Source: Corynebacterium glaucum (GTDB taxonomy: Bacteria; Actinomycetota; Actinomycetes; Mycobacteriales; Mycobacteriaceae). Taken from it: 64,000 nucleotides of DNA. The notes under the pieces are model-generated. The model did no database searches and was not told the DNA's origin. It worked only from the letters and a program-made list of their open reading frames with translations. This document shows positions 11 to 62,072 of the stretch, one piece after another; the stretch's first letter is position 1, and the number at the start of each line of letters is the position of its first letter. The position numbers were made by a program, and so were the translations under genes. The DNA lies in assembly GCF_030408855.1 (NCBI RefSeq), contig NZ_CP047358.1, forward strand, positions 1,240,001-1,304,000, in the 5' to 3' direction.

Positions 11-886
11 CTAGTCGCTCAACAGCTGATCCAGCAGGGCGACAAGCTGGGAACGCAGGGGAATTGCCTCCTCCGAGAGTTGCCGCTGCCGGGTGACATA
101 TTCAGCTTTACCCTCGTTTGTCTCAACCGCAACCACGTCGAAACCTAGGCTGCGGCAATCGTAGGGCGAAGCCTCCATATCGAGTTGTCGCGCCCGCGCA
201 GCAAGCTCAAAAGCATCAAGCAAGAGCTCCCCGGGCACCACCGGCCCAAGCTTTGCCGCCCACTTGTACAAGTCCATCGTCACATGCACGCAGCCGGGCT
301 GGTCCTGCGCAATCTGATCTTCGCGCTCAAGCACGGTGAGGTTGAGCGGGCGCGCGGCAGGAGCGAAGAAGCGGTAAGCGTCGAAATGGCTGCACTTAAG
401 CTGGTGCGACTCCACCACAGCGTCGGTGCCGGCGGCGCCGAGGCGGAGTGGCAGATCGTGGCGCGGACGCTCCGTGCGATACACCATTGCCCACTCATGC
501 ATGCCAAAGCAGTCAAAGTGGGCGGGCCGGTCCTGCGTGGCCCGAAGCAGCTCGCGGATGCGCACCATTTCGGCGCGCCGTTTTGCGAGGAAAGACTCGG
601 GGTTGAACCGCACAGTGCCATCCTCCAGCGTTTCGTAGTGGGGATAGCGCGCGTGCGGTGTGGCGGAGGCGTCGACAAGCAAAGCCCCAAGCCCCGGGTG
701 CCAGGTGCGCAACTGGCTTGCTCTAAAAGGGTAGTAGTCAAAGAGGAAATCCCACACGGGGTGCGCGATCCCGCGGGTGCGCCGCTCGAGGTGCGGCTCA
801 GTGAAGGCTCGTGCCCGGAGCTCGTGCTTATCGACGGCCTCTTTATACGCCGTCGGTGTATACACCCTCTCGCTATTCCTCTTCAT
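11..886 (-). CDS. Predicted 3-methyladenine DNA glycosylase family protein
   Basis: The 291-residue protein matches an actinobacterial family usually annotated as 3-methyladenine DNA glycosylase. Family-like stretches are HPVWDFLFDYYPFRASQLRTW (about residues 42-62, quoted here only in part as HPVWDFLFDYY) and the Trp/His/Cys-rich block HFDCFGMHEWAMVYR (about 122-136). If the annotation is right it would excise alkylated bases in the cytoplasm, but I see no helix-hairpin-helix or AlkA/Tag signature, so the role is only a family-level guess. The ATG start overlaps the 3' end of the upstream CNNM/CBS gene by 14 bases, so it is probably the last gene of that operon. Confidence 0.6.
   Translation of the reverse strand: MKRNSERVYTPTAYKEAVDKHELRARAFTEPHLERRTRGIAHPVWDFLFDYYPFRASQLRTWHPGLGALLVDASATPHARYPHYETLEDGTVRFNPESFLAKRRAEMVRIRELLRATQDRPAHFDCFGMHEWAMVYRTERPRHDLPLRLGAAGTDAVVESHQLKCSHFDAYRFFAPAARPLNLTVLEREDQIAQDQPGCVHVTMDLYKWAAKLGPVVPGELLLDAFELAARARQLDMEASPYDCRSLGFDVVAVETNEGKAEYVTRQRQLSEEAIPLRSQLVALLDQLLSD
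826..836 (-). repeat. CGTCGATAAGC copy 1
   Basis: Exact copy near the 5' end of the glycosylase gene, read there as Val-Asp-Lys. Confidence 0.8.
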
Positions 887-1925
887 GTGTCCAGTCCGAC
901 ACGGTGCCCACGTACTCCTCGATGATGTCTTCGAGCGCGGCCACCCCGACCAGCTCGCCGTTGTCGCGCACCTGCGCCATGTGCGCAGAACGGCGGTGCA
1001 TGGCGGTCAGAGCGTCGTCGAGGGACTGCGCGCCGTCGACAATGCTCAGTGCACGAATGCGGGAGACCGGCATGACCGGGTCCTCTTCCTCGGACTCCAT
1101 GAGGTCGAGGCAGTCCTTCACGTGGATGTAGCCGACAAGGACGCCCGGCGCGCGCTCCACGGGGAAGCGTGAGTAGCCGGTTTCGCGCACCGCCTGCTCA
1201 ATCTCGGAAAGGCGGGTGCCGCGTGGACGGTAGGGAAGGGTCACCAGGTCCCCGAGCGGGATCATGATCTCGCTGAGGCTGCGCGACTCCGTGCGCAGCG
1301 CGTTGGCGAGGCGGCGAGTTTCCTCTGCGTCTAGCAGACCTTCTTCGCTCGATTCCTTGATCATGGTGGCCAGCTGCTCCTGGTCCACGGTGGATTCGAG
1401 CTCATCGCGCTGTTCTATGCCAAAGGCGCGCAGCGTGCGGCGGGCGACCCAGTTTAGGCCTTCAATGATCGGGCGGGTGGCCCGCATCCAGACGGTGAAC
1501 GCCGGAGTGAGCAGCATCGCGGTGGTTTCGGGGCCCGCGATGGCGATGTTCTTGGGCACCATTTCACCCAGCAGAATGTGCAGGTAGGAAATGATGATGA
1601 GCGCGATGACGAAGGAGATCGGGTGAAGCAGCTCCCCAGGCAACCCCAACGCCTCGAAGGGGACTTCGATGTAGTGGGCGATAGCGGGTTCTGCGACCTT
1701 TCCCAGGATGAGCGAGGCCACGGTGATGCCAAACTGAGCACCGGCCAGGTAGATCGACAGGTGCTCGATTGCGTGGATAACACCTTTGGCTTCGCTCTTG
1801 CCCTGAGCAAGCAGCGACTCGAGGCGGTCGCGACGCGAGGACACTAGCGCGAACTCGGTGGCGACGAAAAAGGCGTTGACGGCGAGCAACACCGCGATGA
1901 GCAGAATGGCGGCAAAGATGTTCAT
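873..1925 (-). CDS. CNNM/CBS-domain membrane protein (HlyC/CorC-like), short form
   Basis: The 350-residue protein has the CNNM (DUF21) architecture. Hydrophobic segments fill about residues 1-185, including the conserved ATEFALVSSRRDRLE stretch after TM1 and GEMVPKNIAIAGPE near 125. Two CBS repeats follow (about 205-330). It stops soon after the CBS pair, so it lacks the CorC_HlyC domain of its upstream partner. CNNM/CorC proteins are linked to Mg2+ and Co2+ efflux or homeostasis at the cytoplasmic membrane; the substrate here is inferred. Its start overlaps the stop of the longer paralogue by 4 bases, indicating translational coupling and perhaps a hetero-oligomer. Confidence 0.85.
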   Translation of the reverse strand: MNIFAAILLIAVLLAVNAFFVATEFALVSSRRDRLESLLAQGKSEAKGVIHAIEHLSIYLAGAQFGITVASLILGKVAEPAIAHYIEVPFEALGLPGELLHPISFVIALIIISYLHILLGEMVPKNIAIAGPETTAMLLTPAFTVWMRATRPIIEGLNWVARRTLRAFGIEQRDELESTVDQEQLATMIKESSEEGLLDAEETRRLANALRTESRSLSEIMIPLGDLVTLPYRPRGTRLSEIEQAVRETGYSRFPVERAPGVLVGYIHVKDCLDLMESEEEDPVMPVSRIRALSIVDGAQSLDDALTAMHRRSAHMAQVRDNGELVGVAALEDIIEEYVGTVSDWTHEEE

Positions 1926-3346
1926 CGAGCACCTCCGTTCGAGGCTTGTCGAGACTCCTGCGCCTGCTTCGCCTGTTCAGCTTGCTCCGGGGTGATGGGA
2001 CTCAAGATTGTGCGGTCCACACGACGCTCATCCATCACCGTCACCCGAGCGAGCCAGTGCCCCTCGGCACCGGACTCCAGTTCCTCCTGGAAGCTGGTCA
2101 CTGCGTTCCGTGGCAGTACGATGCGGTCACCGACCCGCGGAACCCGTCCGAGCGTGGCCATGATCAGCCCGCCTAAAGTCTCATATGGCCCATCCGGGGC
2201 GGTATACCCAGTCTTTTCTTCCAGCTCGTCGAGGCGGACAAGGCCGGCGACCTCCCAGGAAGTGCCGAATCGTTGGAAATCGCGCATCGACTCCCTGTCG
2301 TCGTACTCGTCGTAAACCTCGCCGAGAATCTCCTCAACGACATCTTCGATAGTCACCAAGCCCTGGGTGCCGCCGTATTCGTCTGCGATAAGCACCACTT
2401 GGGAGCCGGCGGAGCGCACGCGGTTGAGCACTGCGTCGCCGTCGAGCGTGCCCGGCACGAACGGCACTGGGCGGGCGAGGGGGGCGAGCTTGGTGGTGGC
2501 GCGATCCTCCCTTGGAACGGAGAATGCGTCCTTGATGTGCACAAAGCCAATCGTGTCGTCGAGGTCGCCGCGCCGCACCGGGAAGCGGGAATGGCCCGAC
2601 TCGCGAGCCAGCGAGATGAGATCCGCAACCGTGTCTTCGGCATCCAGCGAGTCAATGGTGGAGCGCGGAGTCATCACCTCTTCTGCCGTGGTTTCACCGA
2701 AGCGCAGCGAGCGATCGATCACCGCCGCGGTTTCCGCATCCAGACCGCCAGCTTCCGCGGAGTTTCGCACCATGGCGCCGAGTTCCTGTCCGGAGCGCGC
2801 CGAGGCAAGCTCGTCGGCCGGCTCGATGCCCATGCGCCGCACAATCCAGTTCGCGGATCGGTTCAGCGACTTGATGAACCAGGCGAACACCGTATTGAAC
2901 GCGTTGACCGGCGGCACCACGAAGCGCGCGGTGGCCAACGGCTCCGTAATCGCAATGTTCTTCGGTACCAGCTCGCCGAACACCATGGAGAGGAACGTCG
3001 CAACGATAAGCGCGATTATCAGTGCGACAGCCCTGGACGCCGATGCGTCGAGCCCCGCCAATTCCAGCAAAGGCGTGAAGTACTGGCCCAACACCGGCTC
3101 GGCCAAAAAGCCCGCTGCCAGGGTGGTCACGGTGATGCCGAGTTGCGCGCCCGAGAGCACAAAGGAGAGGTTCGCGTGATCGCGTGCAACTGCGCGAGCG
3201 GCAGCATCGCCTTTGTCGCGGACATGCGCCTCGATGGTGGAGCGTTCAAGTCCCGTCATCGCGAACTCAATGGCCACGAACAGGCCTGTCGAGGCGGTGA
3301 GCAGGATGAACCCGAGGAGCGAAAGGATGGAGATGAATATGTCCAT
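1922..3346 (-). CDS. CNNM/CBS/CorC_HlyC-domain membrane protein, long form
   Basis: The 474-residue protein has an N-terminal CNNM transmembrane domain (about 1-195, with FVAIEFAMTGLERS and GELVPKNIAITEP), a CBS pair (about 215-335, with EEVMTPRSTIDSLD and DEYGGTQGLVTIEDVVEEIL) and a C-terminal CorC_HlyC domain (about 350-440). This is the full-length version of the family linked to divalent cation extrusion. It lies 12 bases after the helicase gene and is coupled to the shorter paralogue. Pairs of CNNM proteins are common in actinobacteria. The C-terminal tail is Gln/Ala-rich and probably disordered. Confidence 0.88.
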   Translation of the reverse strand: MDIFISILSLLGFILLTASTGLFVAIEFAMTGLERSTIEAHVRDKGDAAARAVARDHANLSFVLSGAQLGITVTTLAAGFLAEPVLGQYFTPLLELAGLDASASRAVALIIALIVATFLSMVFGELVPKNIAITEPLATARFVVPPVNAFNTVFAWFIKSLNRSANWIVRRMGIEPADELASARSGQELGAMVRNSAEAGGLDAETAAVIDRSLRFGETTAEEVMTPRSTIDSLDAEDTVADLISLARESGHSRFPVRRGDLDDTIGFVHIKDAFSVPREDRATTKLAPLARPVPFVPGTLDGDAVLNRVRSAGSQVVLIADEYGGTQGLVTIEDVVEEILGEVYDEYDDRESMRDFQRFGTSWEVAGLVRLDELEEKTGYTAPDGPYETLGGLIMATLGRVPRVGDRIVLPRNAVTSFQEELESGAEGHWLARVTVMDERRVDRTILSPITPEQAEQAKQAQESRQASNGGAR

Positions 3347-3358: not shown

Positions 3359-4639
3359 TTAGTGCCTTTGCTTGCCGCCTCCGCCTCGCCGGCGGCGCGA
3401 GCGCGGTTGCTGCCCTCCGGACGCCCTAGCGGACGAGGATTTCGCCGGTTGCTGACCCGGGGGCGGCAGCGGTGCTCCCTCGGGTTTTCGTGCGCCAGTA
3501 ATGTTAACCAATTCTTCCGACATCGGGGTAACACGCACCGTGGTCGCGTCCACGCCAGCCTTCCTCAACAGCTGGTCGACTTCCTTGCGTTGCTCATCCA
3601 TCACCAGCGTCACCACCGTGCCGGAGGTTCCGGCGCGTGCGGTGCGCCCCGCCCGGTGCAGGTACGCCTTGTGTTCGGCCGGAGGATCGACGTGGACGAC
3701 GAGGGAGACGTCGTGAATGTCGATCCCGCGCGCCGCAATGTCAGTCGCCACCAGCACGGGAGTGGAGCCGTCGGCAAACCCTTCGATTGCACGTGTGCGG
3801 GCACCCTGGCCTTTATCCCCGTGCAGGCCCATCGCGTCAATACCGACACGACGAAGCTTCTTCACCTGGCGATCCACGCCGTGCTTGGTGCGCATGAACA
3901 TGATCGTCTTGCCGTCGCGCGCACCGATCTGCAGCACAATCTCGTTGCGGGTATCGCGGTCGCCCACCAGCAGCTGGTAGTGCTCCATCGTGTCCACCGC
4001 AGCCTCAACAGGAGCAGTCGAGTGGGTCACCGGATCGTGCATGTAGCGAGCAATGAGCTTTTCGACGTCACCGTCAAGCGTCGCAGAGAACAGCAGCCGT
4101 TGACCGTCTGGCGGCGTCCGGTCGAGCAGTTTGCGTACCTGCGGCAAAAAACCCATATCGGCCATCTGATCGGCCTCGTCGATGGCGGTAACGCGCACGT
4201 CGTCAAGCGAAAGCTTGCCCTGGTTGATGAGGTCCTCGGCGCGACCTGGAGTGGCAATGAGCAGGTCAACCGGAGCTGCGAGCGCCCGGATGTGGTGGTT
4301 GATGTTCACACCGCCGACCACATCGAGGACGCGGAGCCCAAGCGCTGCCGCGGGATCCTCGAGCCGCTCGCGGATCTGCGCTGCGAGCTCGCGCGTGGGG
4401 GCGAGCACGAGACCGCGCGGGCGACCAGGCTTGGACGGTGCTCCTGCCAACCGGGCGAGCATCGGAAGACCAAAGGTGAACGTCTTGCCGGAGCCGGTGG
4501 GTCCACGGCCGAGGACGTCGAGACCCGCCAGTCCGTCCGGAATCGCCGCCTCCTGGATGGGGAACGGTGTATCGATGCCCTGCTTGTTCAGTACGGAAAT
4601 GATCTCGCGGGGCAGCCCTAGGTCGGCGAAAGAAGTCAT
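3359..4639 (-). CDS. DEAD/DEAH-box ATP-dependent RNA helicase
   Basis: The 426-residue protein has the DEAD-box motifs in order: an F-x-x-x-G-[LI]-P Q-motif region (residues 5-30), Walker A GPTGSGKT (about 46-53), PTRELA (about 81-86), ATPGR (about 128-132), a DEAD-type motif II read as AIDEADQMADMGF (about 152-164), SAT (about 183-185), and HRAGRTARAG for motif VI (about 330-339). A basic Arg/Gly-rich tail (RSRRRRGGGGKQRH) suits RNA binding. It probably remodels RNA in the cytoplasm. A TAAGAT hexamer (4647-4652) 7 bases before the ATG overlaps the gnd stop codon and suggests an internal leaderless promoter. Confidence 0.92.
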   Translation of the reverse strand: MTSFADLGLPREIISVLNKQGIDTPFPIQEAAIPDGLAGLDVLGRGPTGSGKTFTFGLPMLARLAGAPSKPGRPRGLVLAPTRELAAQIRERLEDPAAALGLRVLDVVGGVNINHHIRALAAPVDLLIATPGRAEDLINQGKLSLDDVRVTAIDEADQMADMGFLPQVRKLLDRTPPDGQRLLFSATLDGDVEKLIARYMHDPVTHSTAPVEAAVDTMEHYQLLVGDRDTRNEIVLQIGARDGKTIMFMRTKHGVDRQVKKLRRVGIDAMGLHGDKGQGARTRAIEGFADGSTPVLVATDIAARGIDIHDVSLVVHVDPPAEHKAYLHRAGRTARAGTSGTVVTLVMDEQRKEVDQLLRKAGVDATTVRVTPMSEELVNITGARKPEGAPLPPPGQQPAKSSSARASGGQQPRSRRRRGGGGKQRH

Positions 4640-4649
4640 TCGTGCGATC

Positions 4650-6146: not shown

Positions 6147-6153
6147 AGTGGAA

Positions 6154-6192
6154 ATTCTACGCCGGACACGTGGCGCTCGAGCGCCGTAGAGT
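6154..6192. promoter_or_regulatory. Divergent -10 elements for gnd and the thioesterase gene
   Basis: TAGAAT (6154-6159, minus strand) sits 7 bases before the gnd ATG, and TAGAGT (6187-6192, plus strand) sits 7 bases before the thioesterase ATG. That spacing puts the transcription start at or next to the start codon in both directions. No Shine-Dalgarno is visible for either. Confidence 0.6.
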
Positions 6193-6199
6193 GGGTTCA

Positions 6200-6634: not shown

Positions 6635-6643
6635 CTTTGCGTT

Positions 6644-7844: not shown

Positions 7845-8732
7845 TTAGAAAACCGTCAGGCCACGGGAACGAAAGACCGAACGCACATGATCGACAGACT
7901 CCTGAGATGGGGGAGTCACGTCCTTCAGTTCGTAGTCCAGCCCGATTTTCTCCCACTTGTCCGCGCCCATGTTGTGGAACGGCAGCACCTCGACGCGTTC
8001 CACGGTGTCTTTCCACCGCGCGACAATGTCGGCTACCCGCTGCACGTTGTCCTCAGCATCGGTCAAACCCGGTACAAGGACAAAACGAACCCACACCTTC
8101 TTGCCCTTAGCGTGAAGACGGTCGCCAAAGTCGATCGTCGGCTGCAGCTGACGCGCGGTGACGTGCTCGTAGGTGTCCGGGTCGCCGGATTTCACATCGA
8201 GCAGAAATAGGTCGATGTTGTCCAGATCATCATCCGTTAGTCGGGATCCGAGGAACCCTGAGGTATCAACGGTGGTGTGCACGCCCGCGTCGTGGACAGC
8301 TTTCAGAAGCCGACGCGTGAACGCAATCTGAAACAGCGGCTCGCCTCCAGACAGGGTGATCCCTCCGCCTGAAGCGTTGAACACCGGCTTGTAGCGCAGG
8401 ATCCGCTTCACCACGTCGTCGATGTGTTCGAGCGTGCCTTCCTTCATTTCCATGGTGTCCGGGTTGTGGCAGAACTTGCACCGCAGCGGGCAACCAGAAA
8501 GAAAGAGGGTCATGCGGGTGCCTGGGCCGTCGACAGCAGTGACCAGCTCCCAGGAGTGGATGAGACCAATGTCGCCAGTCCGCCGAGCGTCGAGAAGCTC
8601 TGGACGGGTGATCTCGAGATCATCGGTAGAAAGTCCGCCTAAACCGGCGGCGACGCCGCGCACGCGTTCACCCTGTTCAGGCTGAAGCGTGACGACGCCG
8701 CTCGTTCCGTCGTTCGCCATAGGCTTAGGCAC
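7845..8732 (-). CDS. pflA: Pyruvate formate-lyase activating enzyme (radical SAM)
   Basis: Installs the glycyl radical on pyruvate formate-lyase using S-adenosylmethionine and a [4Fe-4S] cluster. The cluster cysteines are C81, C85 and C88 in [26 protein letters not shown] (about 119-132) is the radical-SAM glycine motif, and the C-terminal [14 protein letters not shown] is typical of PflA. The protein has 295 residues against about 246 in E. coli; the extra is an N-terminal extension of about 45 residues. The gene overlaps the glycyl-radical gene by 8 bases at this start. An alternative ATG at 8720 would leave a 4-base gap. Confidence 0.96.
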
Positions 8733-8976: not shown

Positions 8977-9024
8977 GTTGGGTGTACTCCTTCTTGAGTG
9001 GGTAGGTGGATGGGAAAACTTGGG

Positions 9025-11205
9025 TTAGGCCGGCTGGATGGTGGTGTCAGCGTTCTCCATGATGAAGCCCGCGTCGAGGACACCGACCAGGTTAGCTACC
9101 TGCTCGTCCTTGTTGCGGCCAAGGCCAGCCGGGGTGATGGTGTTGGTCAGCGAAATGCCGTCGAGCGCGTCGTTGTAGTCGAGCTTGCCCACAGACAGCA
9201 TCGATGCGACCATGCCGTGGTTGTCGGCGCCGTTCTCCGGGTTCGCACCAGGTGCGAACGGGGTGCCGGCCTTGTGCCCAGAGGGGAACGAGCCGGTGGC
9301 CTTGCCGTAGACCACGTTGGACGTAATCGTCAGCACCGACTGCGTCGGGATCGCGTCGCGGTACATCGGGATGGACTTGATCTTCTGCATCACCGTGTGC
9401 ACCACGGTTGCAGCGATGTCGTCCGCGCGGTCGTCGTCGTTGCCGTAGAACGGGAAGTCGCCTTCGGTGACGTAGTCGACCACCAGGCCCGTTTCATCGC
9501 GCACTGGGAAGACCTTCGCGTGCTTGATGGCGCTGAGCGAGTCGGCCACGATCGAAAGACCTGCGATGCCACAGCCCATGGTGCGGATGATGTCGGAATC
9601 ATGCAGCGCCATCTCGATGGACTCGTAGGCGTAGCGGTCGTGGCAGTAGTGGATGATGTTCAACGCTTCAACGTAGGTGCCAACGACCCAGTCGAGCATC
9701 TCCTCATACTTCTGCCAGACCTCGTCGAAGTCCAGTGGGCCGTCGCCCTCGATCGGGGTGTGGTTGCCGTCGGTAATCTGCTTGCCACTGACTTCGTCGC
9801 GGCCACCGTTAATGGCGTACAGCAGCGCCTTCGCGGCGTTCACACGAGCGCCGAAGAACTGCATCTGCTTGCCCACCTTCATCGGCGAGACACAGCAGGC
9901 GATCGCGGCATCGTCGCCCCACATGTCGCGAATCTGCTTGTCAGACTCGTACTGCAGCGACGAGGTTTCAATCGAGATCGCGGCGCAGAACTCCTTGTAG
10001 CCCTCCGGAAGGGACGGATCCCAGAAGATGGTGATGTTCGGTTCCGGAGCCGGACCCAGGTTGCGCAGGGTCTGGAGCAGGCGGAACGACGTCTTGGTCA
10101 CCTGGTGGCGTCCGTCTTCGGAGAAGCCAGCATCGGACCAGGTTGCCCAGTATGGGTCGCCGGAGAAGATCTGGTCGTAGTCTTCGGTGCGCAGGAAGCG
10201 CACTATGCGCAGCTTGATCACCAGGGCATCGATGATCTCCTGGGCCTTAACCTCAGTGAGCGTGCCGTTCGCAAGGTCGCGCTCGAAGTACGCGTCCAGG
10301 AAAGGGGAGAGGCGGCCGATGGACATTGCCGCGCCGTCCTGGCTCTTGACCGACGCGAGGTAGCCGAAGTAGGTCCACTGGACGGCTTCCTTGGCGTTGG
10401 TCGCAGGCCCCGAGATGTCGAAGCCGTAGTCTGCGGCCATCTTCTTGAGCTTCTTTAGCGCCTTGATTTGCTCGGAGTGCTCCTCGCGGTAGCGCGCCCA
10501 GTGCTCGGAGAAGCCGTTCTGCATGGAAGCATCCTTGGCACGGAGCTTGTCCTCGATGAGCTTGTCGACGCCGTAGAGCGCCACCCGTCGGTAGTCGCCA
10601 ATGATGCGGCCGCGGCCGTATGCATCCGGCAAGCCGGTCACGATGTGCGAGGAACGCGCGGCACGGATGCGCGGAGTGTAAATGTCGAAGACCGCGTCGT
10701 TGTGGGTCTTGCGGTACTGGGTGAAGATCTTCTTCACATCCGGGTTGACCTCTTTGCCGGCCTCGTTGATAGCCTGCTCGACCATGCGCCAGCCACCGTT
10801 CGGCATCATGGCGCGCTTGGTCGGGGTGTCCGTCTGCAGGCCGACGATGACATCGTCGTCCTCGGAGATGTAGCCGGGCTCGAACGCGTCAATGTCAGCC
10901 GGGGTCTCGGTGTCTACGTCGTATACACGTCGCTCGCGCTCGACGGCCAGGTAGTTCTTGTCCAGGTGGTCCCAGAGGCGCAGCGTTTTTTCAGTTGCGC
11001 CTTCGAGGAACGAAGCATCCCCATCGTAGGGGGTGTAGTTGCGTTGGATGAAATCGCGAACGTCAATCTCTTCCATCCACGGACCAGGTGTGAAGCCTTC
11101 CCACGCCTGGTTCTGAGTTTGCGGCTCTGTAGCGATAGTCACAGTTGCACGGTCCTTCACGTTGTTGATCTTGTGTGCTCCGGCGGCTGCGCTTACCCTC
11201 ACCAT
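9025..11205 (-). CDS. pflB: Pyruvate formate-lyase large subunit lacking the glycyl-radical domain
   Basis: Cleaves pyruvate with CoA to acetyl-CoA and formate under anoxia. The 726-residue reading contains the catalytic pair C437-C438 in AIACCVSPM, the GRGRIIGDYRRVALYG block (about 198-212) and the SVLTITSNVVYGKATG region. It ends at ENADTTIQPA, where E. coli PflB would continue into about 70 residues carrying RVSGYAV. The radical glycine is therefore encoded by the next gene. A GTG at 11142 (AAGGA ten bases upstream) would give 705 residues and put the cysteines at 416-417, close to E. coli 418-419, so it may be the true start. Confidence 0.95.
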   Translation of the reverse strand: MVRVSAAAGAHKINNVKDRATVTIATEPQTQNQAWEGFTPGPWMEEIDVRDFIQRNYTPYDGDASFLEGATEKTLRLWDHLDKNYLAVERERRVYDVDTETPADIDAFEPGYISEDDDVIVGLQTDTPTKRAMMPNGGWRMVEQAINEAGKEVNPDVKKIFTQYRKTHNDAVFDIYTPRIRAARSSHIVTGLPDAYGRGRIIGDYRRVALYGVDKLIEDKLRAKDASMQNGFSEHWARYREEHSEQIKALKKLKKMAADYGFDISGPATNAKEAVQWTYFGYLASVKSQDGAAMSIGRLSPFLDAYFERDLANGTLTEVKAQEIIDALVIKLRIVRFLRTEDYDQIFSGDPYWATWSDAGFSEDGRHQVTKTSFRLLQTLRNLGPAPEPNITIFWDPSLPEGYKEFCAAISIETSSLQYESDKQIRDMWGDDAAIACCVSPMKVGKQMQFFGARVNAAKALLYAINGGRDEVSGKQITDGNHTPIEGDGPLDFDEVWQKYEEMLDWVVGTYVEALNIIHYCHDRYAYESIEMALHDSDIIRTMGCGIAGLSIVADSLSAIKHAKVFPVRDETGLVVDYVTEGDFPFYGNDDDRADDIAATVVHTVMQKIKSIPMYRDAIPTQSVLTITSNVVYGKATGSFPSGHKAGTPFAPGANPENGADNHGMVASMLSVGKLDYNDALDGISLTNTITPAGLGRNKDEQVANLVGVLDAGFIMENADTTIQPA

Positions 11206-11238
11206 TTCTGTTTTTAAAGCGCCCGCCGCTTATGAATC

Positions 11239-11353: not shown

Positions 11354-12706
11354 CTATTGCTTATCGACGCTTGCGTTGCCCCGCGCTAGGCGCTGCTCCA
11401 ACTGGCCGGTGGTGGTGACCAGGTTGTAGCGCCGCGGGTTGATCGCGTTGAGCAGCCACGTAAACGAGGTGACAACGCGGTTTCGCAGGCTCTGGAGGAA
11501 CTGGACGTGGACGAACAGCCACATCAGCCAACCGATGAAGCCGGTGAACTCGACCTTGCCCATCTTCACCACAGCATTGAAGCGGGAGATAATCGCCATC
11601 GAGCCCTTGTCGAAGTAGGAGAACGGATCGCGATCCTCCGGAGCAACATCGTGCTCGACCTGCTCCTTGATGATGCGCCCTGCGTACTCACCGGACTGGA
11701 TCGCCACCTGAGCCACACCCGGCAGCTTGTTCAGTTCCATCATGTCGCCGACAACGAAAACGTTGCGCAGCTCGCCCACGGTGCAGTCCGGGTTCACCGG
11801 TACCTTGCCGTTACGCGGCACCTCAACGCCAGCCTGCTCCGCGATGACGCGGCCGAGCGGGGAGGCCTCGACACCGGCGGACCAGATCTTGGTCTCGGCC
11901 TCGACAGTCGTCTCTTCCTCGGTCTTCGTGTTCTTGTAGGTGACGGACTTCTCGTCGACGTTGGTGACCATCGAGTTGAGCACGATGGTCACGCCCTCGC
12001 GTTCGAGCTGGCGCTGTGCCTTTTTGCCGAGGCGCTTGCCGAACGGCGGCAGAACCTGCGCCATGCCGTCGATGAGGACGATCTTCGCGGAATCGGGGCT
12101 GAACGAGTACTCACCCTTCTTGAACGAGCGGTGGGCAAGCTCCGCAATCTGGCCAGCCATCTCGACACCGGTCGGGCCGGCGCCGACGATGACGAAGGTG
12201 AGCAACCGCTCGCGCTCTTCCGCGGAGTCGGTGAGCTCGGCACGCTCTAACGCGTCCATGATGCGGGCACGGATCTCAAACGCGTCATCGAGCGTCTTCA
12301 AACCCGGCGCGAACTCGGCGAAGTGGTCGTTGCCAAAGTAGGACTGCCCGGCACCAGCGGCGATGATCAGAGAGTCGTACTCGTAGCGGTACTCATTATC
12401 CTCATCCACAGCGACGACGACCTGTGCCGAAGAGTCGATGTCCTGCACATCGCCGCGCACCACTCGGAAATTCTTCTGACCGCGAGTGAGCTGGCGAAGC
12501 GACACACCGATCTCGCCGGAGGAAAGCAGGCCGGTGGCCACCTGGTAGAGCAAAGGCGGGAACAGGTGGTGGTCGGTGCGGTTGATCAACGTGATGTCCA
12601 CGTCTGCGTCCGCGAGCTCGCGAGCAGCGTAGAGGCCGCCGAAGCCGGCACCGACAATCACAACGTGGTGGCGGTTACCAGCAGGGCGAAATGGCTTGTC
12701 TGCCAT
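11354..12706 (-). CDS. ndh: Type II NADH dehydrogenase (NDH-2)
   Basis: A single-subunit, non-proton-pumping NADH:menaquinone oxidoreductase on the inner face of the membrane. The 450-residue protein has an N-terminal FAD motif VIVGAGFGGLYAAREL (about residues 15-30), a second dinucleotide fold FVIVGAGPTGVEMAGQIAEL (about 170-189) for NADH, and the FAD-contact block VFVVGDMMEL followed by AIQSGEYAGRIIKEQ for quinone and FAD. A hydrophobic amphipathic tail (FTGFIGWLMWLFVHVQFL) anchors it to the membrane. I chose the ATG at 12706 because AGGAG lies 8 bases upstream; a longer frame of 35 codons has no support. Confidence 0.95.
   Translation of the reverse strand: MADKPFRPAGNRHHVVIVGAGFGGLYAARELADADVDITLINRTDHHLFPPLLYQVATGLLSSGEIGVSLRQLTRGQKNFRVVRGDVQDIDSSAQVVVAVDEDNEYRYEYDSLIIAAGAGQSYFGNDHFAEFAPGLKTLDDAFEIRARIMDALERAELTDSAEERERLLTFVIVGAGPTGVEMAGQIAELAHRSFKKGEYSFSPDSAKIVLIDGMAQVLPPFGKRLGKKAQRQLEREGVTIVLNSMVTNVDEKSVTYKNTKTEEETTVEAETKIWSAGVEASPLGRVIAEQAGVEVPRNGKVPVNPDCTVGELRNVFVVGDMMELNKLPGVAQVAIQSGEYAGRIIKEQVEHDVAPEDRDPFSYFDKGSMAIISRFNAVVKMGKVEFTGFIGWLMWLFVHVQFLQSLRNRVVTSFTWLLNAINPRRYNLVTTTGQLEQRLARGNASVDKQ
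11359..11369 (-). repeat. CGTCGATAAGC copy 2
   Basis: Exact copy in the last codons of ndh (Val-Asp-Lys-Gln before the stop). Confidence 0.8.
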
Positions 12707-12837: not shown

Positions 12838-14142
12838 GTGACAGGCAGAGCGCGACCGGGAGATCATCTAGCTACCATCGACCCCGATCGATGGCCTGGG
12901 ATTGCCACTCTTCCGGACGTTGCGACGACCACAATGCGCGCGCGGCGGGCCGAGTCGACGTTCGCGCGGGCGGTCAGCGCCGCGGGCCTCACCTTCGACG
13001 GGAACAATGCCGATCTCATCGTCGACTATGCGGAGCTCTTCTCCCGCATTGCGGTTAACGGTTGGGTCGGGCTTGCGGAAGGCTACCTGGCAGGAGAGTG
13101 GCGCACCGCCTCCTCGCATAAGCTTGTCGACGTCTTGGCAGCGCTCATTACCGCCAACTACCGCCCTAAAACCATCCGTCTCAAACCGTCGAGTGGGGCC
13201 AGTAGCGGGGAGCCTCCAGCGTCGCTCGTCGCGCACTACTCGGGTGACGGCATGAGTCCGTTCCAGGGGCATTTCGCCACCGGTGTCCCGACCACTGAGC
13301 GCGTCATAGTGAAATCGTGGGCGCGCGGGGCAGGCAAGCGGAGTGAACCCGCGCGCCACTACGTGGACATCACTGAGTTCGGCGCCCCGCTGAATACGAT
13401 GCGGCAGGACCTTGCTGACGCCCAGACAAGAAGTGCGGAAATGCTCCTGGAGGCGGCTCATACGCAGTCAGGCACGCATCTGCTTGTGTCTCCTGTACCG
13501 GGTGGAGCGCTACCACTCGCCGCAATACGGCTCGGTGCCACCGTTGATTGCGTGGTGTCCGAGACAGGCGACGCACGGACGCTAAAGGAGTTACTCGTAT
13601 TTGCCGGCGCAGCCGACGCGGTGCGAGTCATGAGCCCGGATGAACTCAACTCGACCGTTGGCGCATTCGATGCGATCATCTCGGCCGAGTATCTGGAGAC
13701 GTTGTCGCCCCGGAGCAAGGCCAGCTACTTGGCCGGTATCGACGCTGTGCTCGCACCCGGTGGGCGAGTGGCCATGCAAACCATTGTCCGCACCGAAACA
13801 ATGACCCCGGCGGCGAACGCCGCCCTTGAAAGCCTGCGCGCGTACATCTGGCCCGGCTTAAGCTTCGCCACGCCGGAGGAGTTGGCGAGGCTCGTCGACC
13901 GCCATACTGGTTTGCGTGTGATCTCCGAGACGCGCGCGCCCGAGCACCTCGTGGCGTCGCTGTCGCTGCAGCGCACGACCTTCGACGGCAGAGCTCGTGA
14001 TGCCGCCGCCGACGGCTTCGACCCCGTGTACCGCAGGCTGTGGACCTGGCAGTTCGCGCTGCGCGAAGCGCTGGCACGCCTTGGCATGCTCAACCTCACG
14101 CAGCTGACATTGGTCCCGCGGAGTCGAAGGGGCCGTCGATAA
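12838..14142 (+). CDS. Cyclopropane-fatty-acid-synthase-like protein with degenerate SAM site
   Basis: The family is recognisable from FDAIISAEYLETLSP, VLAPGGRVAMQTIV, AYIWPGLSF, TPEELARLV and the end NLTQLTLV, all matching the Cfa fold. However, the glycine-rich SAM motif I (usually VLEIGCGWGG) is replaced by LLVSPVPGGALPLAA, and I see no clear catalytic cysteine block. It may be a non-catalytic or altered-substrate paralogue acting on membrane lipids. The GTG at 12838 (434 residues) is preferred because TAGCAT (12825-12830) lies 7 bases before it; an ATG 11 codons upstream is possible. It is divergent from ndh, and its stop codon lies inside a copy of the 11-mer repeat. Confidence 0.72.
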   Translation: MTGRARPGDHLATIDPDRWPGIATLPDVATTTMRARRAESTFARAVSAAGLTFDGNNADLIVDYAELFSRIAVNGWVGLAEGYLAGEWRTASSHKLVDVLAALITANYRPKTIRLKPSSGASSGEPPASLVAHYSGDGMSPFQGHFATGVPTTERVIVKSWARGAGKRSEPARHYVDITEFGAPLNTMRQDLADAQTRSAEMLLEAAHTQSGTHLLVSPVPGGALPLAAIRLGATVDCVVSETGDARTLKELLVFAGAADAVRVMSPDELNSTVGAFDAIISAEYLETLSPRSKASYLAGIDAVLAPGGRVAMQTIVRTETMTPAANAALESLRAYIWPGLSFATPEELARLVDRHTGLRVISETRAPEHLVASLSLQRTTFDGRARDAAADGFDPVYRRLWTWQFALREALARLGMLNLTQLTLVPRSRRGRR

Positions 14143-14144
14143 GC
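14134..14144 (+). repeat. CGTCGATAAGC copy 3
   Basis: Exact copy that contains the TAA stop of the Cfa-like gene (CGT-CGA-TAA), a different reading frame from copies 1 and 2. Confidence 0.8.
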
Positions 14145-37910: not shown

Positions 37911-37933
37911 GCTGTCTAGCTTAACGGCCTAGC

Positions 37934-48987: not shown

Positions 48988-49827
48988 CTAGTAGGGCTGC
49001 ATGACTCCGGTTGCCAGGAGGATCATAACGATGATTCCAAGCGGGATGCGGTACGCCGCAAACCAGGCGAACGAGTGGTGTGAAACGAACTTCAGCAACC
49101 ATGCAATCGAGATGTAGCCGAGCACGAAGCCGATGCCCGATCCGACCAGAAGCTGCAGCCCGGACGCGGATTGGCCGGCCTGCGGGTCGAAGGCGTCGGG
49201 AAGCGAGAACAAGCCCGACGCGAGCACCGCGGGGATGGCCAGCAGGAAGGAGAACCTGGTAGCCACCTCGCGGTCGAGGTTCAGGAACAAACCGCCAGAG
49301 ATGGTGCCGCCGGAACGGGACACACCCGGAATCAGCGCGAGGCACTGCCACAGACCCATGAGGATCGCGTCCTTCATGGTCAGTTCCTCGAACCCACGGG
49401 TCTTGCGTCCCTTGCGCTCGGCGAGGATGAAGACGAAGGAGAAGAGGATCAGCACCGTGGCGGTGATCCAGAGGTTGCGGAAGTTCTCGCGGATCAGATC
49501 CTTAAGCAGCACACCCGCAAGGCCGACCGGGATCGTACCCGCGATGACCATCCAGCCCATTCGGTAGTCGAATCCGCGCTTGGACTTGTCCAGCACCCCG
49601 GCAACCCATGCCGTGAGGATGCGCCAGATGTCCTTGGCAAAGAAGACCAGCACCGCGAGCTCGGTGCCCAGTTGGATCACGGCGGTGAAGCTCGCGCCCG
49701 CGTCCTGGCCCCAGAACAGCTCGGACACGATGCGGAGGTGGCCCGATGAGGACACAGGGAGAAACTCGGTCAATCCCTGCACAACGGACAACACGATAAC
49801 TTGGAGCCAAGTCATTGATTCGGTCAT
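48988..49827 (-). CDS. uppP: Undecaprenyl-diphosphatase
   Basis: Recycles undecaprenyl diphosphate for cell-wall synthesis. The 279-residue membrane protein begins with [29 protein letters not shown] (E-x-x-P-V-S-S-S-G-H motif, about 21-31) and has the second motif [14 protein letters not shown] (about 172-185). Both loops carry catalytic residues. About eight membrane segments are visible. I chose the ATG at 49827; the frame is open 57 codons further upstream across the lppL start and has no homology there. Confidence 0.95.
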
Positions 49828-49915: not shown

Positions 49916-50974
49916 GTGAAGAAACTCCGCGCATTCGAGGCCGCCGTGGCAGTTCTTGGCATTGCGCTTGGCACTGCGTTTAGCACTGTGGCACTCACCG
50001 CGTGCAGCAGCCCGACCGAACTCGCCGACGAGCTCGCGGTGAATATGGGCGACGCCTCCCCTATCGAATCTCCCCCGGCAACGGACCCAGCGGGCGAGGT
50101 TCATGAGTACGAACCGGTGCTAGATCTTGACACCACCGATGGGCTCATCGCGGTGCGCACCGCCGACGCGATCACGGTAGGCACCCTCGACGAGATCCTC
50201 GGCAACACCGCCGAATCCTGGCCGCTAGAGGCGGAGTGCGGCGACGTCTCTGCCAACGCCGGCGTGTTCGCAGTCGGCTGCGGCACGACGGTACGCACGT
50301 TCACAACCTCCGGCGCTGATGAGCACGCGGTTGAACACCCGGCCACAACCGCAACGGTGACCACGAGCGGCGAGATCCTCGCTGCCAGCAACGAAGAGCG
50401 CAACGTGTGGGTGTACCGCGACGGCGAGTTGATCAAGACGATTTCCGTCGCACGCGAGACCGACTCCATCCAGGCAGTGCCCGTAGATGGGAAGCCGGAC
50501 ACGGTAGTGCGCACCAACAGCTTCGACACCACCATCCAGGACCTCGATTGGACGGGCGGGCGCCAAGGCGGCACGCTGCGCGTCGGCCTCGGCGTAGGAA
50601 AGGTCGCTGGTGGCCAGCATGGGTTGGTTCTCGCCGCGGACACCACTGGCAGCCAGCTCTTGGTCTACACCTCCGACGACATCATCCGCCTCCACCAAAT
50701 GGCACCCGTGCCCGAAAGCCCGTGGGATGTCGCGTGGGATCCGGCGGATCGCCTCGCTTGGGTCGCTTCCACTTCCTCGAACTTGGTCACCGGGTACGAC
50801 ATCTCGCGCGGCGTGCCGCTCGAGCGGGCACAGCTCCGAACCGTCGCCAATGCGCGGAGCATTGTTTCGCTTGACGACGGCACGCTGGTCCTCGCCTCCG
50901 CCACCGGCGACGGCATCCAAATCATCACCCCAGCGCAACAAGACCTGCGGGACCTCCCGACCTCCGATCGTTAA
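49916..50974 (+). CDS. lppL: Lipoprotein LppL-like, beta-propeller-type
   Basis: The 352-residue protein has a lipoprotein signal ([31 protein letters not shown]) with the lipobox Cys at about residue 29. The mature part has repeated blades (for example [48 protein letters not shown]) typical of a beta propeller. It should be anchored in the outer face of the membrane. It sits between uppP and pyrD, as LppL does in M. tuberculosis; the function is unknown. The GTG start at 49916 has TAGTGT (49902-49907) 8 bases before it. Confidence 0.8.
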
Positions 50975-50997: not shown

Positions 50998-52083
50998 ATG
51001 AAGCTCTACGACGCCGCACTCAAAGCCATGTTCCTTCTTCCGCCGGAGCGCATTCACGGTGTCATGAGCACCGCGCTGCACTTGCTGCATGTCGCACGGC
51101 CCGTGAACCGCGCCATGGAGCGCGTGGTGCGGGTCCACGATCCGGCACTGGAGCAGGAACTCTTCGGCGTGCGCTTCCCGGCACCCTTGGGTTTGGCTGC
51201 TGGTTTCGATAAGAACGCCACCGCCGTTGACGCGTGGGGCGCCATCGGATTTGGCTACGCCGAGCTGGGCACCGTAACCCCGAAACCGCAGCCCGGCAAC
51301 CCCGCGCCGCGCCTGTTCCGCCTGCCGAAGGACAAGGCGATCTTGAACCGCATGGGATTCAACAACGAGGGCGCACTCGATGCGGCGCAGCGTCTCAAAG
51401 CCAAGCGCTCGAATGACGTCATCGGCATCAACATCGGCAAGAACAAGACTCAACAGGACGCAGTGACCGATTACCGCGCCGGCGCGACGGTGCTGGGTCC
51501 GCTCGCTGACTACTTGGTGGTCAACGTTTCCTCCCCGAACACACCGGGGCTTCGAGACCTCCAAGCAGTCGAGGAACTGCGGCCAATTCTGCAAGTTGTT
51601 GTTGAGGCGACGGACACGCCTGTACTGGTGAAAATCGCACCAGATCTCTCCGACGAGGATGTCGATGCCGTGGCAGACCTCGCCCTAGATCTCGGACTCG
51701 CCGGCATCGTCGCAACCAACACCACCATTTCCCGCGACGGCCTCTCCACGCCTGCTGGAGACGTCGAGGCGATGGGAGCCGGCGGCATTTCCGGCGCGCC
51801 GCTCGCGGACCGCGCGCTTGAGGTGCTTACCCGCCTGTACAACCGCGTGGGCGATCAGCTGGTGCTCATCAGCGTCGGCGGCATCATGACGCCCGAGCAG
51901 GCGTGGGAACGAATCACCGCGGGGGCAAGCCTGCTGCAGGGCTACACGCCGTTCATCTACGGCGGTCCGGGGTGGATCCGGGGCGTGCACCAGGGCGTCG
52001 TTAAGCAATTGAAGCTCCATGGCCTCAGCCATATCTCTGAGGCTGTAGGCAGCGGCCTTACATGGAAAGACGGCGCAGAATAA
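50998..52083 (+). CDS. pyrD: Quinone-dependent dihydroorotate dehydrogenase (class 2)
   Basis: Oxidises dihydroorotate to orotate, passing electrons to menaquinone. The 361-residue protein has an N-terminal membrane-associated helical domain (about 1-45), then [17 protein letters not shown] (about 63-79), the catalytic Ser in [14 protein letters not shown] (about 176-189) and FMN-phosphate loops [14 protein letters not shown] and [24 protein letters not shown] precedes the ATG. Gene order lppL-pyrD is conserved with mycobacteria. The 3' end overlaps the next, opposite gene by 26 bases. Confidence 0.97.
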
Positions 52084-53300: not shown

Positions 53301-53987
53301 GTGCCGAAGCTCTCCGCACGCCGCATCTTCCTTCTCATCCTCGCAGCTGCCGTGTTCATTGCCGCGTGGGCAGTGCTCGATGTCCCCCCGCTCGCAGTGC
53401 TGCGCCAATGGGCGGATGAGACCGGCCCGTGGTTCCCTGTGCTGTTCTGGCTGCTCTACATTGCGGTCACCCAGTTCCCGATTCCCCGCACCATCATGAC
53501 GGTGTCTTCCGGCATCCTGCTCGGCAGCGCGCTGGGCATCACCGTCGCTGTGACCGCCACCATGGTCTCCGCGGTGGTTTCGTTGCTCATCGTGCGCTTT
53601 CTGCTGCGGGACTTTGTGGCGCCGCGGCTCACGCACCCGTCAATCGAGACCATTAACCAGCGACTCGAAGCCCGCGGATGGCTCGCCGTCGCCAGCCTGC
53701 GCATGATCGCATTCGTCCCCTTCTCCATCCTCAACTACACGGCGGCACTCACTCGTGTGCCGGTTCTGCCGTTTGCAATCGGGACCTTCGTGGGCTCGCT
53801 GCCAGGCACTATCGTCACGGTTCTCTTCGGAGATACCCTCACAGGAGAAGCCTCGCCAGTGGTCGTCGTCGCCACCGTCATACTGAGTCTTGCAGGTTTC
53901 GCAGGATTGCTTGCCGACGCCCTCTTACCCGCCTCGGTCAAACCTGACGCGACAAGAACGCGGCCGGGAGTAAAGCCTCAGAGGTAG
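53301..53987 (+). CDS. VTT/TVP38-family membrane protein
   Basis: The 228-residue protein has a first membrane segment (about 8-27) and the VTT (SNARE-associated Golgi) domain with FWLLYIAVTQFPIPRTIMTVSSGILLGSALGI (about 55-86) and the Phe-x-Pro-x-x motif in LRMIAFVPFSILNYTAALT (about 133-150). Relatives are DedA/TMEM41-type lipid scramblases or transporters; the substrate is unknown. The GTG start at 53301 has GGGAGG 5 bases before it. An open frame begins inside the tRNA and should be ignored. Confidence 0.85.
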   Translation: MPKLSARRIFLLILAAAVFIAAWAVLDVPPLAVLRQWADETGPWFPVLFWLLYIAVTQFPIPRTIMTVSSGILLGSALGITVAVTATMVSAVVSLLIVRFLLRDFVAPRLTHPSIETINQRLEARGWLAVASLRMIAFVPFSILNYTAALTRVPVLPFAIGTFVGSLPGTIVTVLFGDTLTGEASPVVVVATVILSLAGFAGLLADALLPASVKPDATRTRPGVKPQR

Positions 53988-55928: not shown

Positions 55929-56354
55929 CTACTCCTTCCAGACGACCGCCACGGGGCCGTCGATTGCGGAAACGGTCACGAGCTGGCCGGCAGGAATCTT
56001 CTCCGCCGGATCCAGAGCCCGGGCAGACCAGATAGAACCATCGAAACGCACTTGCCCCGTAGTCGGAGTGATCGCTTCTACGACTTCCGCACGTGAGCCC
56101 ACCAGGGCGCGCGGAGATTCGTCGTAAAGCATTGGTGTGTCAAGGCGCTTGCGCAGGTATGGGCGCAAAAAGAACCAGAACCCCGCGGAGGAGACGGCGA
56201 ACATGGCCACCTCCGCCCACAACGGGACACCGAGCAGCGAAATGCCAGCGGTTGCCAACGCTCCAGCTGCAAGCATGAGCAGCGTCATTTCCCCGACCAG
56301 AAGCTCAAGTCCTGCGAGGATGCCAGCTGCTATGAACCAGATCAAAGCACCCAT
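55929..56354 (-). CDS. NfeD-like membrane protein
   Basis: The 141-residue protein has three or so membrane segments (about 4-70) and a C-terminal OB-fold domain (about 80-141, VGSRAEVVEAITPTTGQVRFDGSIWSARA). NfeD-short proteins partner SPFH proteins in the membrane. TAGTCT (56362-56367) lies 7 bases before the ATG, suggesting that the NfeD-SPFH pair is transcribed without a leader. Confidence 0.9.
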   Translation of the reverse strand: MGALIWFIAAGILAGLELLVGEMTLLMLAAGALATAGISLLGVPLWAEVAMFAVSSAGFWFFLRPYLRKRLDTPMLYDESPRALVGSRAEVVEAITPTTGQVRFDGSIWSARALDPAEKIPAGQLVTVSAIDGPVAVVWKE

Positions 56355-57270: not shown

Positions 57271-58038
57271 GTGCATACCCGCGCCGAAGTCTATTCCCCG
57301 CTCCAAAACACCGCCGTCTGGCTCGCGGCCTGGCTCTACGGAGTCGAGTCCACCGACGACACCATCGATGCACTCACAGACCGCGGAGGCACCCACAGTT
57401 ACGGTGGTCAGGGGCTTTCGCAGTTGCTTGCCGACGCCCGGTTGGAAGCCGCCTTGGATTCCCCCGAACCCGTCATCCGCTTGGTGCTGTGGGGTCCAGG
57501 GCAGGCTCCTGGTCTTAGGGCCGGAACCCCTGCGATGCAGGCGCTGACCCCTGCCGGCGCGATCGTGATTCGCGGCGAGGGGCTCCGCTCCCACATTCTG
57601 GTACCGTCCTACGACTCCAGCGGCCCCCGGCCGGGCGTCTCCTGGCGCTGGTTCGAAGACGACGAGCGCCTTCCCGAACCGGAATGGCTCTCACCCGGCG
57701 AGGCCGACGCGCTGTTATCTCAGGCGACGAATGACGCAGCCGCGCTCATCGAAACCGCCGGCGGCACGCGCGCTGAGCTGCCGAATCCGCGGTTGGCCGT
57801 GGGCACGCTGGCCGATTTCTACGACACACCAGGGCTTCCCGCCGGAGTTACCCCGAGAGCGGCGAAACTCTTCGCCCGCGCGGATCGCGTCGCGGCGACC
57901 ATCGAGACCGTGACTGATCGGCTCGGCGACCACAGCTTTGACCCGCAGCTGTTCGCGCTCTGGCGACACATCCGCTCCGCGCGCATGGCAGGAGTTGCGG
58001 ATGCGGTGATGGACTATCGCCGCGAATGGGCGTCGTAA
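57271..58038 (+). CDS. Conserved protein of unknown function
   Basis: I do not recognise the family. The 255-residue protein is soluble, without a signal peptide. It has TRAEVYSPLQNTAVWLAAWLYGVESTDDTIDAL near the start and a regular GTHSYGGQGLSQLLADAR, and a helical end (ARMAGVADAVMDYRREWAS). It is divergent from DUF3097, which suggests a linked role. The GTG start at 57271 is chosen from the -10 spacing; a frame open 14 codons earlier crosses the promoter. Confidence 0.72.
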   Translation: MHTRAEVYSPLQNTAVWLAAWLYGVESTDDTIDALTDRGGTHSYGGQGLSQLLADARLEAALDSPEPVIRLVLWGPGQAPGLRAGTPAMQALTPAGAIVIRGEGLRSHILVPSYDSSGPRPGVSWRWFEDDERLPEPEWLSPGEADALLSQATNDAAALIETAGGTRAELPNPRLAVGTLADFYDTPGLPAGVTPRAAKLFARADRVAATIETVTDRLGDHSFDPQLFALWRHIRSARMAGVADAVMDYRREWAS

Positions 58039-58050
58039 AGCGAAATGCTC

Positions 58051-61464: not shown

Positions 61465-61980
61465 CTACACCGTGTCGGTTGTCGCCGACGATCGGGCGCC
61501 AAACACGGTTGCCGTAACAACCAGAACCACCACGAGAAAAGCGGCTACCGCAACGCCCATCCACGGCACTGACAGCCCGTCCGCTTCCGCAAAGAATGCG
61601 CGAACCCCATCCGCATAATCGGGTTGGCTCGCCATCGCGCGCTGCCCCTGCTCTATTTCGGCACGAGTCAAATCGTCGCTTACGCCTACCGCCGCGTGGG
61701 GAGTCCGGATAAGTACAGTCTCAGCCCCTGTTTCGATCTGAAGATCCTGCGCGAGATCTCGAAGCTGCGGCACGTGCTGGGGTGTGTGCTCAAGCACGAC
61801 AATATTCACTTGATCGGCAGCTGACCCACCGGAAGCACCAACGTCGGTAAGCGCCTCCTGCAGGTCCGCTTCCAGCGCGGGATTCACTGGGTTATCGGAG
61901 CCAAACGCGATGCCGTCTTCGCGGAGCTGCACAACAAGGTCAGCGAGATCGGTGCCTTCAGAGATGTGGGCGGATGACAT
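61465..61980 (-). CDS. Rv1476-like membrane protein
   Basis: The 171-residue protein has a soluble N-terminal part (about 1-130) and one C-terminal membrane segment (about 142-163, GVAVAAFLVVVLVVTATVFGA) followed by a short tail. It occupies the place of M. tuberculosis Rv1476, between acn and the RipA-like hydrolase. The soluble part resembles TPM-type domains (IVVLEHTPQHVPQLRDLAQDL), which in relatives act with wall or photosystem assembly. The exact role is unknown. Confidence 0.82.
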   Translation of the reverse strand: MSSAHISEGTDLADLVVQLREDGIAFGSDNPVNPALEADLQEALTDVGASGGSAADQVNIVVLEHTPQHVPQLRDLAQDLQIETGAETVLIRTPHAAVGVSDDLTRAEIEQGQRAMASQPDYADGVRAFFAEADGLSVPWMGVAVAAFLVVVLVVTATVFGARSSATTDTV

Positions 61981-62061
61981 GGTGGCCGGGTGCCAGACTT
62001 TCGCGCTAGTTAGTGACTAGGTAATGAATCGTTTGGATATGGGATGGCGCTTTCAAGATAC

Positions 62062-62072
62062 CGTCGATAAGC
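62062..62072 (+). repeat. CGTCGATAAGC copy 12
   Basis: Exact copy in non-coding DNA between the Rv1476-like gene and acn, the only copy wholly outside coding sequence. Confidence 0.8.

Follow-up and report, generated by a model that had tools for sequence, protein, structure and literature searches.

A bipartite motif scattered over Corynebacterium chromosomes, CGTCG-NN-AAGC, is probably a genus-specific DNA uptake sequence

Why does a single 11-nucleotide word, CGTCGATAAGC, stand 12 times in 64 kb of a corynebacterial chromosome? The stretch concerned, called the window here at its full length, comprises 64,000 nucleotides of Corynebacterium glaucum (contig NZ_CP047358.1, positions 1,240,001 to 1,304,000) and belongs to a genome of one contig with 2,529,320 bases. 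An earlier reading made from its letters alone, hereafter the sequence-only reading, had listed these copies and suggested either an uptake-type sequence or a binding site of a nucleoid protein. Of these two proposals the first is the better supported and the second the less likely. We consider it probable, on the sequence evidence assembled below, that the motif is a DNA uptake sequence specific to the genus Corynebacterium.

All 12 exact copies were found again at their coordinates, six per strand, where a third-order Markov model predicts 0.05, and allowing up to one mismatch to CGTCGATAAGC gave 31 matches in the window (mean 1.45, maximum 5 in 100 dinucleotide shuffles). The exact 11-mer did not hold as the unit. 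In 464 kb of the source genome it occurred 107 times (1.2 expected), variants at positions 6 and 7 were far above expectation as well (CGTCGACAAGC, 40 versus 1.7; CGTCGAAAAGC, 21 versus 0.8; CGTCGTTAAGC, 10 versus 0.25) and changes at the other motif positions were mostly near chance. We therefore define the unit as the core CGTCG-NN-AAGC with AT as its favoured middle, of which CGTCGATAAGC is one form and which the window contains 46 times. Near copies carrying C at position 7 had been interpreted as decayed versions. They exist, and there are six rather than four of them (10560 and 22615 in addition to 670, 13122, 36659 and 47089), but positions 6 and 7 are only loosely fixed and decay is not the right description.

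The excess extends to the complete genome, which holds 508 exact copies (263 forward, 245 reverse), far from background, compared with one copy of the reversed 11-mer. Core copies number 1554 (784 on one strand, 770 on the other; 103 for the reversed pattern), or one per 1.6 kb. A genome total in the hundreds or thousands, at a density close to one per kb, also characterizes the uptake signal sequences (USS) of Pasteurellaceae and the DNA uptake sequences (DUS) of Neisseriaceae. Like these, the motif has no orientation bias in the genome: over 75 motif-rich genomes we counted 40260 forward and 40362 reverse copies, and the objection that the sequence-only reading had raised to a polar signal from the even strand split is borne out. 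We examined gene context in 504 kb of the genome, a sample that contains 321 core copies and in which 427 genes were called by a crude procedure. Relative to replication, with the origin assumed at base 1, 146 sampled copies were leading-sense and 175 lagging-sense (p = 0.12). Each of 22 sampled 20-kb stretches contained 6–19 core copies, so the motif is not confined to one part of the chromosome as macrodomain-type sites such as parS and matS are.

Coding constraints do not account for this abundance. Twenty synonymous-codon shuffles of the genes gave 23.0 ± 4.7 core copies compared with 270 observed, and 3.2 ± 2.4 exact copies compared with 96, which agrees with the earlier view that protein coding is no explanation and rejects codon usage of a VDK tripeptide, named there as a possible refutation. 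The reversed control was also raised in the same shuffles (24 versus 14.4 ± 2.9), so small excesses can be compositional, while that of the core is 270 to 23. Among intragenic core copies 187 of 279 were antisense, and favouring one orientation within reading frames is a trait of USS and DUS (PMC2346458). Around 105 exact copies we observed a graded flank consensus, G-rich from about −29 to −11, with A at −7 and −6, G at −2 and, downstream, a purine and then an A-run from +11. When flanks were tested separately by reading frame, each frame being compared with its own composition (171, 54 and 28 copies), and for 38 intergenic copies, every one of the four classes favoured A at −7, −6 and +12, and two or three of them favoured several of the G positions. 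The preference for A after the motif noted previously is thus real and belongs to a longer consensus, whose outer limits are unsure because significant positions are scattered further out in the coding classes. We also observed that intergenic copies often run into GCTC; a downstream RAAA(N)GCTC could pair with the core AAGC as a very small hairpin, at varying spacing.

The core is rigid. In 504 kb perfect copies were 24-fold above expectation (321 versus 13.5) and single-mismatch copies numbered 346 (289 expected), so that perfect copies far outnumber single mismatches once chance matches are subtracted, as in USS and DUS. The clearest raised mismatch at a rigid position was A8 to G (52 versus 22 expected), perhaps a half-functional variant. 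Over 229 kb aligned to C. glaucum at 95.0% identity, 145 of 153 and 145 of 149 copies were kept, while 60 permuted same-letter patterns, matched by letters and not by reading frame, were kept in 270 of 369 cases. At 70–75% identity, 1118 of 3692 pairwise comparisons (30%) shared a site, compared with 212 of 3801 (6%) for 40 permuted patterns; this comparison covered 40 of 44 named loci, and its pairs reuse genomes and are not independent. Sites turn over while hundreds persist per genome. Unshared sites differed by substitution, with no insertion, both in the 229-kb alignment and in Pup ligase orthologues (rows on the strand of the window counted), which is the in-place origin described for USS and DUS.

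Depletion in foreign DNA is expected of uptake sequences, although it does not define them. In 223,666 bases retrieved from seven plasmids, which belong to C. striatum, C. aurimucosum and C. tuberculostearicum, we counted 9 core copies, where the chromosomal density of C. aurimucosum predicts about 88; the reversed control gave 4 versus 4.5 expected (from 61 in 3.0 Mb of C. aurimucosum chromosome). Plasmid G+C content is lower, at 52–59%. Without the two C. tuberculostearicum plasmids the count was 9 in 175 kb. All nine copies lay in two short segments. Seven were in pTP10 at 4566–14870, limits that were fixed after the sites were known, and none in the other 39.7 kb retrieved of that plasmid; this segment carries tetAB together with chromosome-type genes such as mshC and that of undecaprenyl-diphosphate phosphatase. 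The other two were in NZ_CP069515 at 15376–15796 (starts 15376 and 15786), where they fall within a predicted aac(3)-XI and a gene for a sensor kinase. Both tagged segments look as if they were derived from motif-rich chromosomes. The longest stretch of the sampled genome that is free of the motif, at 14.7 kb (L011:2396-17113; G000:C1:884396-899113), coincides with a copper-resistance cluster of multicopper oxidase, sensor kinase and P-type ATPase genes, all without the core, although this lack is partly chosen since the cluster was picked as the largest such gap. Its ATPase shares 96.6% identity with an ATPase carried by Rothia terrae plasmids, and the cluster is also present in C. glaucum at about 97–99%.

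We then consider how widely the motif is distributed. In 101 Corynebacterium genomes drawn evenly from a larger group, 75 were rich in the core (280–1891 copies, median 1091) and 26 were poor (8–134), with reversed controls of 22–106 across the sample and the cut between 134 and 280 set after the counts were known. Named species, for which 32 of the 44 named loci were searched and several are the same genomes as in this sample, include C. pilosum (1891), C. glaucum (1553), C. propinquum (1196), C. aurimucosum (1179), C. minutissimum (1154), C. striatum (1135) and C. riegelii (848), as well as C. phoceense (69) and C. spheniscorum (35). Outside the genus, 120 genomes of the order all stayed at or below about 1.6 times the reversed control, compared with 15 times in the source genome. 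Three of the 26 poor genomes carry instead a second dialect, CATCG-NN-AAGC, in 1021, 736 and 680 copies, while their CGTCG copies are few (97, 35 and 28). One further genome had 213, the remaining genomes of the 101 had at most 159, and C. phoceense had 6 copies in 21 kb. Flanks of the second dialect, from 37, 38 and 114 copies, were again G-rich upstream and different downstream. Overrepresentation across a group with dialects is another USS and DUS trait. The CATCG label of G108 (159 copies) is weak and doubtful, its count being no higher than that of the CGTCG-rich G011. The CGTCG-rich genomes G004, G005, G011, G036, G075, G098 and G117 also hold 125–159 CATCG-NN-AAGC copies, above most others, as if mixing dialects. 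No further dialect stood out in the motif-poor genomes searched, in 10–80 kb per genome and leaving out G078, G096, G100, G103, G105 and G119; with so little sequence, weak or differently spaced motifs could escape.

A Pup ligase tree of 53 rows was used to place these labels. All motif labels together cluster on it, requiring 8 changes compared with a shuffled mean of 19.3, and 13 of 16 motif-free rows fall on one supported side. The tree is a quick one from a single gene with long branches, in which the pairing of C. pelargi with G106 may be false; it covers 32 of 44 named loci and 20 of 26 motif-poor genomes, and the labels of C. phoceense and p3SID1145 come from one 21-kb locus each.

Taken together, the copy number and strong consensus, the even strand split, the origin in place, the existence of a second dialect, the turnover of sites and their scarcity on plasmids fit uptake sequences as the literature describes them (PMC1626085, PMC3630211), and for this reason we hold the motif to be an uptake tag. 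Judged by sequence it works like USS and DUS. We do not class it as a proven member, because two secondary traits, a non-coding preference and regular spacing or close pairs, are absent and the definition is a functional one, preferential uptake of tagged DNA or transformation by it. We infer a role in DNA uptake, the Tad pilus as the uptake pilus, and a receptor. A surface receptor would bind extracellular DNA carrying CGTCG-NN-AAGC and its extended flanks; it would most likely be a pilin-like subunit of a conserved Tad/Flp-type pilus, or a protein working with the pilus, and would hand the bound DNA to ComEA/ComEC. Tagged fragments would be taken up and recombined more often, and would therefore restore the tag and spread it over the chromosome by biased gene conversion, while untagged foreign DNA would stay untagged. 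Some lineages would have switched to CATCG-NN-AAGC or have no bias. The Tad pilus is our first choice as reader because tad/Flp genes are needed for natural transformation in the actinobacterium Micrococcus luteus (PMC4322843, PMC6370729); the Neisseria tag receptor is a minor pilin (PMC6370729), and a minor pilin has been proposed as receptor for Pasteurellaceae (PMC12616744).

The corresponding machinery is encoded in the source genome, which has comEA-comEC-holA, DprA and a Tad locus. The latter encodes Ssd and TadA, another two proteins, one short Flp-like protein and a pair of TadE-like proteins, the first of which scores below the curated cut-off. The locus adjoins a large opposite-strand gene. 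TadB, TadC, Flp and a helicase are presumed from position and sequence, with no family match. Across the genus ComEC was found in 61 of 61 genomes, DprA in 101 of 101 and T2SSE (TadA) above the cut-off in 97 of 101, so hosts of the motif do possess competence genes of the kind that accompany USS and DUS.

Several observations weigh against an uptake sequence read by this machinery. ComEC, T2SSE and DprA are equally common in motif-poor genomes, and the machinery therefore does not predict the motif. A T2SSE match above the cut-off was absent from the motif-poor G024 and, which at face value speaks against Tad, from the motif-rich G021, G099 and G116; all four are drafts, and for the latter three, which are fragmented assemblies and in which the absence may be a real loss or an assembly gap, 17 first-look T2SSE candidates were scored each. 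In the motif-rich G001 (1618 core copies) ComEC lies in two overlapping pieces in different frames (G001:C4:524862-525658), perhaps broken by a frameshift. Among Flp, TadE and TadE2 of 18 genomes, two proteins being without a match, we found no receptor whose form follows the motif; differences between these pilin-like proteins track the deep clade instead. TadE comes in one form in the motif clade and in another in the deep motif-poor clade, but where members of the former are motif-poor they still have the form of their clade, and none of the three proteins was singled out as receptor. An apparent loss of TadE2 in G014 proved to be a missed match, the reading frame being open.

The placement of copies and the literature add to these reservations. 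In the 504-kb sample, with crude gene calls, 42 of 321 core copies (13%) were intergenic compared with 15% expected, giving no preference for non-coding DNA. The sequence-only reading had noted three window copies at gene 3′ ends; these are there, but position deciles within genes are flat in the sample and intragenic copies show no gene-end bias. Spacing in the sampled genome was not more regular than random (coefficient of variation 0.955 versus 0.988 ± 0.053), and close pairs were not in excess, with 4 gaps under 50 bases where 10.4 were expected. On the tree, the four CATCG rows alone need 3 changes against a shuffled mean of 3.9, and their clustering is weak, since 32 of 500 shuffles were as low. 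Among the open papers listed, no title or beginning of an abstract reported natural transformation or an uptake sequence for Corynebacterium, an absence that is not proof. CGTCGATAAGC or its reverse complement occurs in five open papers, none of which deals with genome repeats as far as title and beginning of abstract tell. A motif-discovery study including C. aurimucosum, C. jeikeium and C. urealyticum reported CRISPR repeats for them (PMC5217627).

Alternatively, the motif could be the binding site of a chromosome-organizing or nucleoid-associated Corynebacterium protein, with many sites kept by selection. Such a site would also be spread along the sampled genome without strand bias, strongly conserved, with a flank consensus and turnover, and foreign DNA would likewise be without it. 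However, perfect copies dominate and single mismatches barely exceed chance, and strong consensus is typical of USS and DUS, in contrast to the relaxed one of regulatory protein sites (PMC1626085). We would also expect a genome-wide switch at one position to be harder to obtain by selection at about a thousand sites. Given the small single-mismatch excess, the turnover of sites and the near-absence from plasmids, we regard this explanation as unlikely.

Still less probable, and in our judgement very doubtful, is a motif of the HIP1 kind or one linked to methylation, marked by a methyltransferase or repair system and abundant because it serves self-recognition or repair. HIP1 (GCGATCGC) is a palindromic octamer without long flanks, whereas CGTCG-NN-AAGC is not its own reverse complement and has long flanks; a flanking consensus of about 40 bases is not expected of a methylation site. 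The two share a very high abundance in one group of organisms: many copies within a single genus, a bipartite core and an unassigned function are reminiscent of cyanobacterial HIP1 (PMC4390886). Polar signals for replication or recombination, such as Chi and KOPS, would also be short, abundant and chromosomal, but the motif lacks the replication-oriented bias required of them; the strand counts (784/770; 146 versus 175) contradict this reading, and we give it almost no credence. Dispersed REP-like mobile repeats or a codon or peptide artefact, suggested by the high copy number and by three window copies in one gene, can practically be dismissed, as the flanks form a graded consensus without a shared duplicated body, orthologous sites differ by substitutions rather than insertions, and synonymous shuffles yield 23 core copies instead of 270.

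Within the window, the exact copies of CGTCGATAAGC on the plus strand are at 14134..14144 (overlapping the stop codon of a CMAS-domain gene), 17576..17586 (antisense in an apolipoprotein N-acyltransferase-like gene), 22726..22736 (3′ end of a trypsin-like protease gene), 27319..27329 (antisense in a PafC-like gene), 31081..31091 (antisense in the Pup ligase gene) and 62062..62072 (outside called genes and followed by GAAAGCTC). Those on the minus strand are at 826..836, 11359..11369 (3′ end of an NDH-2-like gene), 30997..31007 and 31949..31959 (both within the Pup ligase gene), 40322..40332 (antisense in a PD-(D/E)XK nuclease-like gene) and 47831..47841 (in a gene with a class I, Cys-type, tRNA-synthetase domain). 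The remaining core copies take the form CGTCGACAAGC at 670..680 (+), 10560..10570 (−), 13122..13132 (−), 22615..22625 (−), 36659..36669 (+) and 47089..47099 (+); CGTCGAAAAGC at 4057..4067, 20858..20868, 25479..25489 and 28188..28198 (all −); CGTCGTCAAGC at 4198..4208 (+), 39654..39664 (+), 43206..43216 (−), 43281..43291 (+) and 50869..50879 (−); CGTCGAGAAGC at 8588..8598, 16561..16571, 19314..19324 and 47774..47784 (all +); CGTCGGCAAGC at 18848..18858 (−), 20630..20640 (+), 53909..53919 (−) and 57426..57436 (−); CGTCGTGAAGC at 22366..22376 (+) and 45745..45755 (−); and CGTCGTTAAGC at 34014..34024 (−, outside called genes), 37932..37942 (−) and 51996..52006 (+). Rarer forms are CGTCGCAAAGC at 35970..35980 (−), CGTCGCCAAGC at 37607..37617 (+), CGTCGGGAAGC at 49194..49204 (+), CGTCGTAAAGC at 56120..56130 and 58031..58041 (both +) and CGTCGGTAAGC at 61842..61852 (+). 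The Pup ligase gene (30503–32020, minus strand) thus carries three exact copies, two of them in opposite orientation at a distance of 84 bases; orthologues were compared at all three. Pup ligase, the PafC-like regulator, a protein with a mycolic-acid-synthase domain and the gene with the Cys-type synthetase domain are part of the gene content of the window. The Pup ligase itself shows 96% identity to its counterpart in C. glaucum DSM 30827, which places the genome in Corynebacterium close to C. glaucum.

How would such an uptake sequence compare with known ones? It resembles the Neisseriaceae DUS GCCGTCTGAA and its dialects in having hundreds to thousands of copies on both strands, a strong consensus, the occurrence of dialects, and restriction to one taxon in which some genomes are without it (PMC3630211, PMC1626085). 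It differs in its unrelated core, its flanks, the missing non-coding preference and a host with a Tad-type locus, and it is known here from sequence alone. With the Pasteurellaceae USS AAGTGCGGT and ACAAGCGGT it has in common a rigid core with flanks that extend it, a density of roughly one copy per kb, the lack of any orientation bias, an origin other than insertion, and lineage dialects (PMC1626085). Its core is again unrelated, its long flank is G-rich upstream with a short A-run downstream, and it shows no enrichment in intergenic DNA, towards the ends of genes or as close pairs. Micrococcus luteus is, in the same way, an actinobacterium with Tad-type genes, ComEA and ComEC (PMC4322843, PMC6370729), but the term 'uptake sequence' is not present in its transformation paper (PMC4322843). 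As of 2006, USS and DUS were not known outside Pasteurellaceae and Neisseriaceae (PMC1626085), and among the later open papers listed nothing contradicts this limit.

We tentatively extend this reading to a proposal that seems to us possible rather than probable: Corynebacterium, with its own outer (myco)membrane, may have evolved an uptake sequence of its own, separately from Neisseria and Haemophilus, with a subunit of a Tad/Flp-type pilus as its reader, and dialects and losses may set which species swap chromosomal DNA, skin commensals and opportunists like C. striatum among them. The mycomembrane is a feature of the Corynebacterium host that sets it apart from Neisseriaceae. If true, this would be a third, unrelated origin of uptake sequences, in an actinobacterium that has both a mycomembrane and a Tad locus, and would show that sequence-gated DNA uptake evolves repeatedly. 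Natural competence would be predicted in Corynebacterium, where two dialects, many motif-rich species and motif-poor relatives offer a ready test system. As the plasmids examined are mostly without the tag, the finding would be relevant, too, to the spread of genes among skin corynebacteria.

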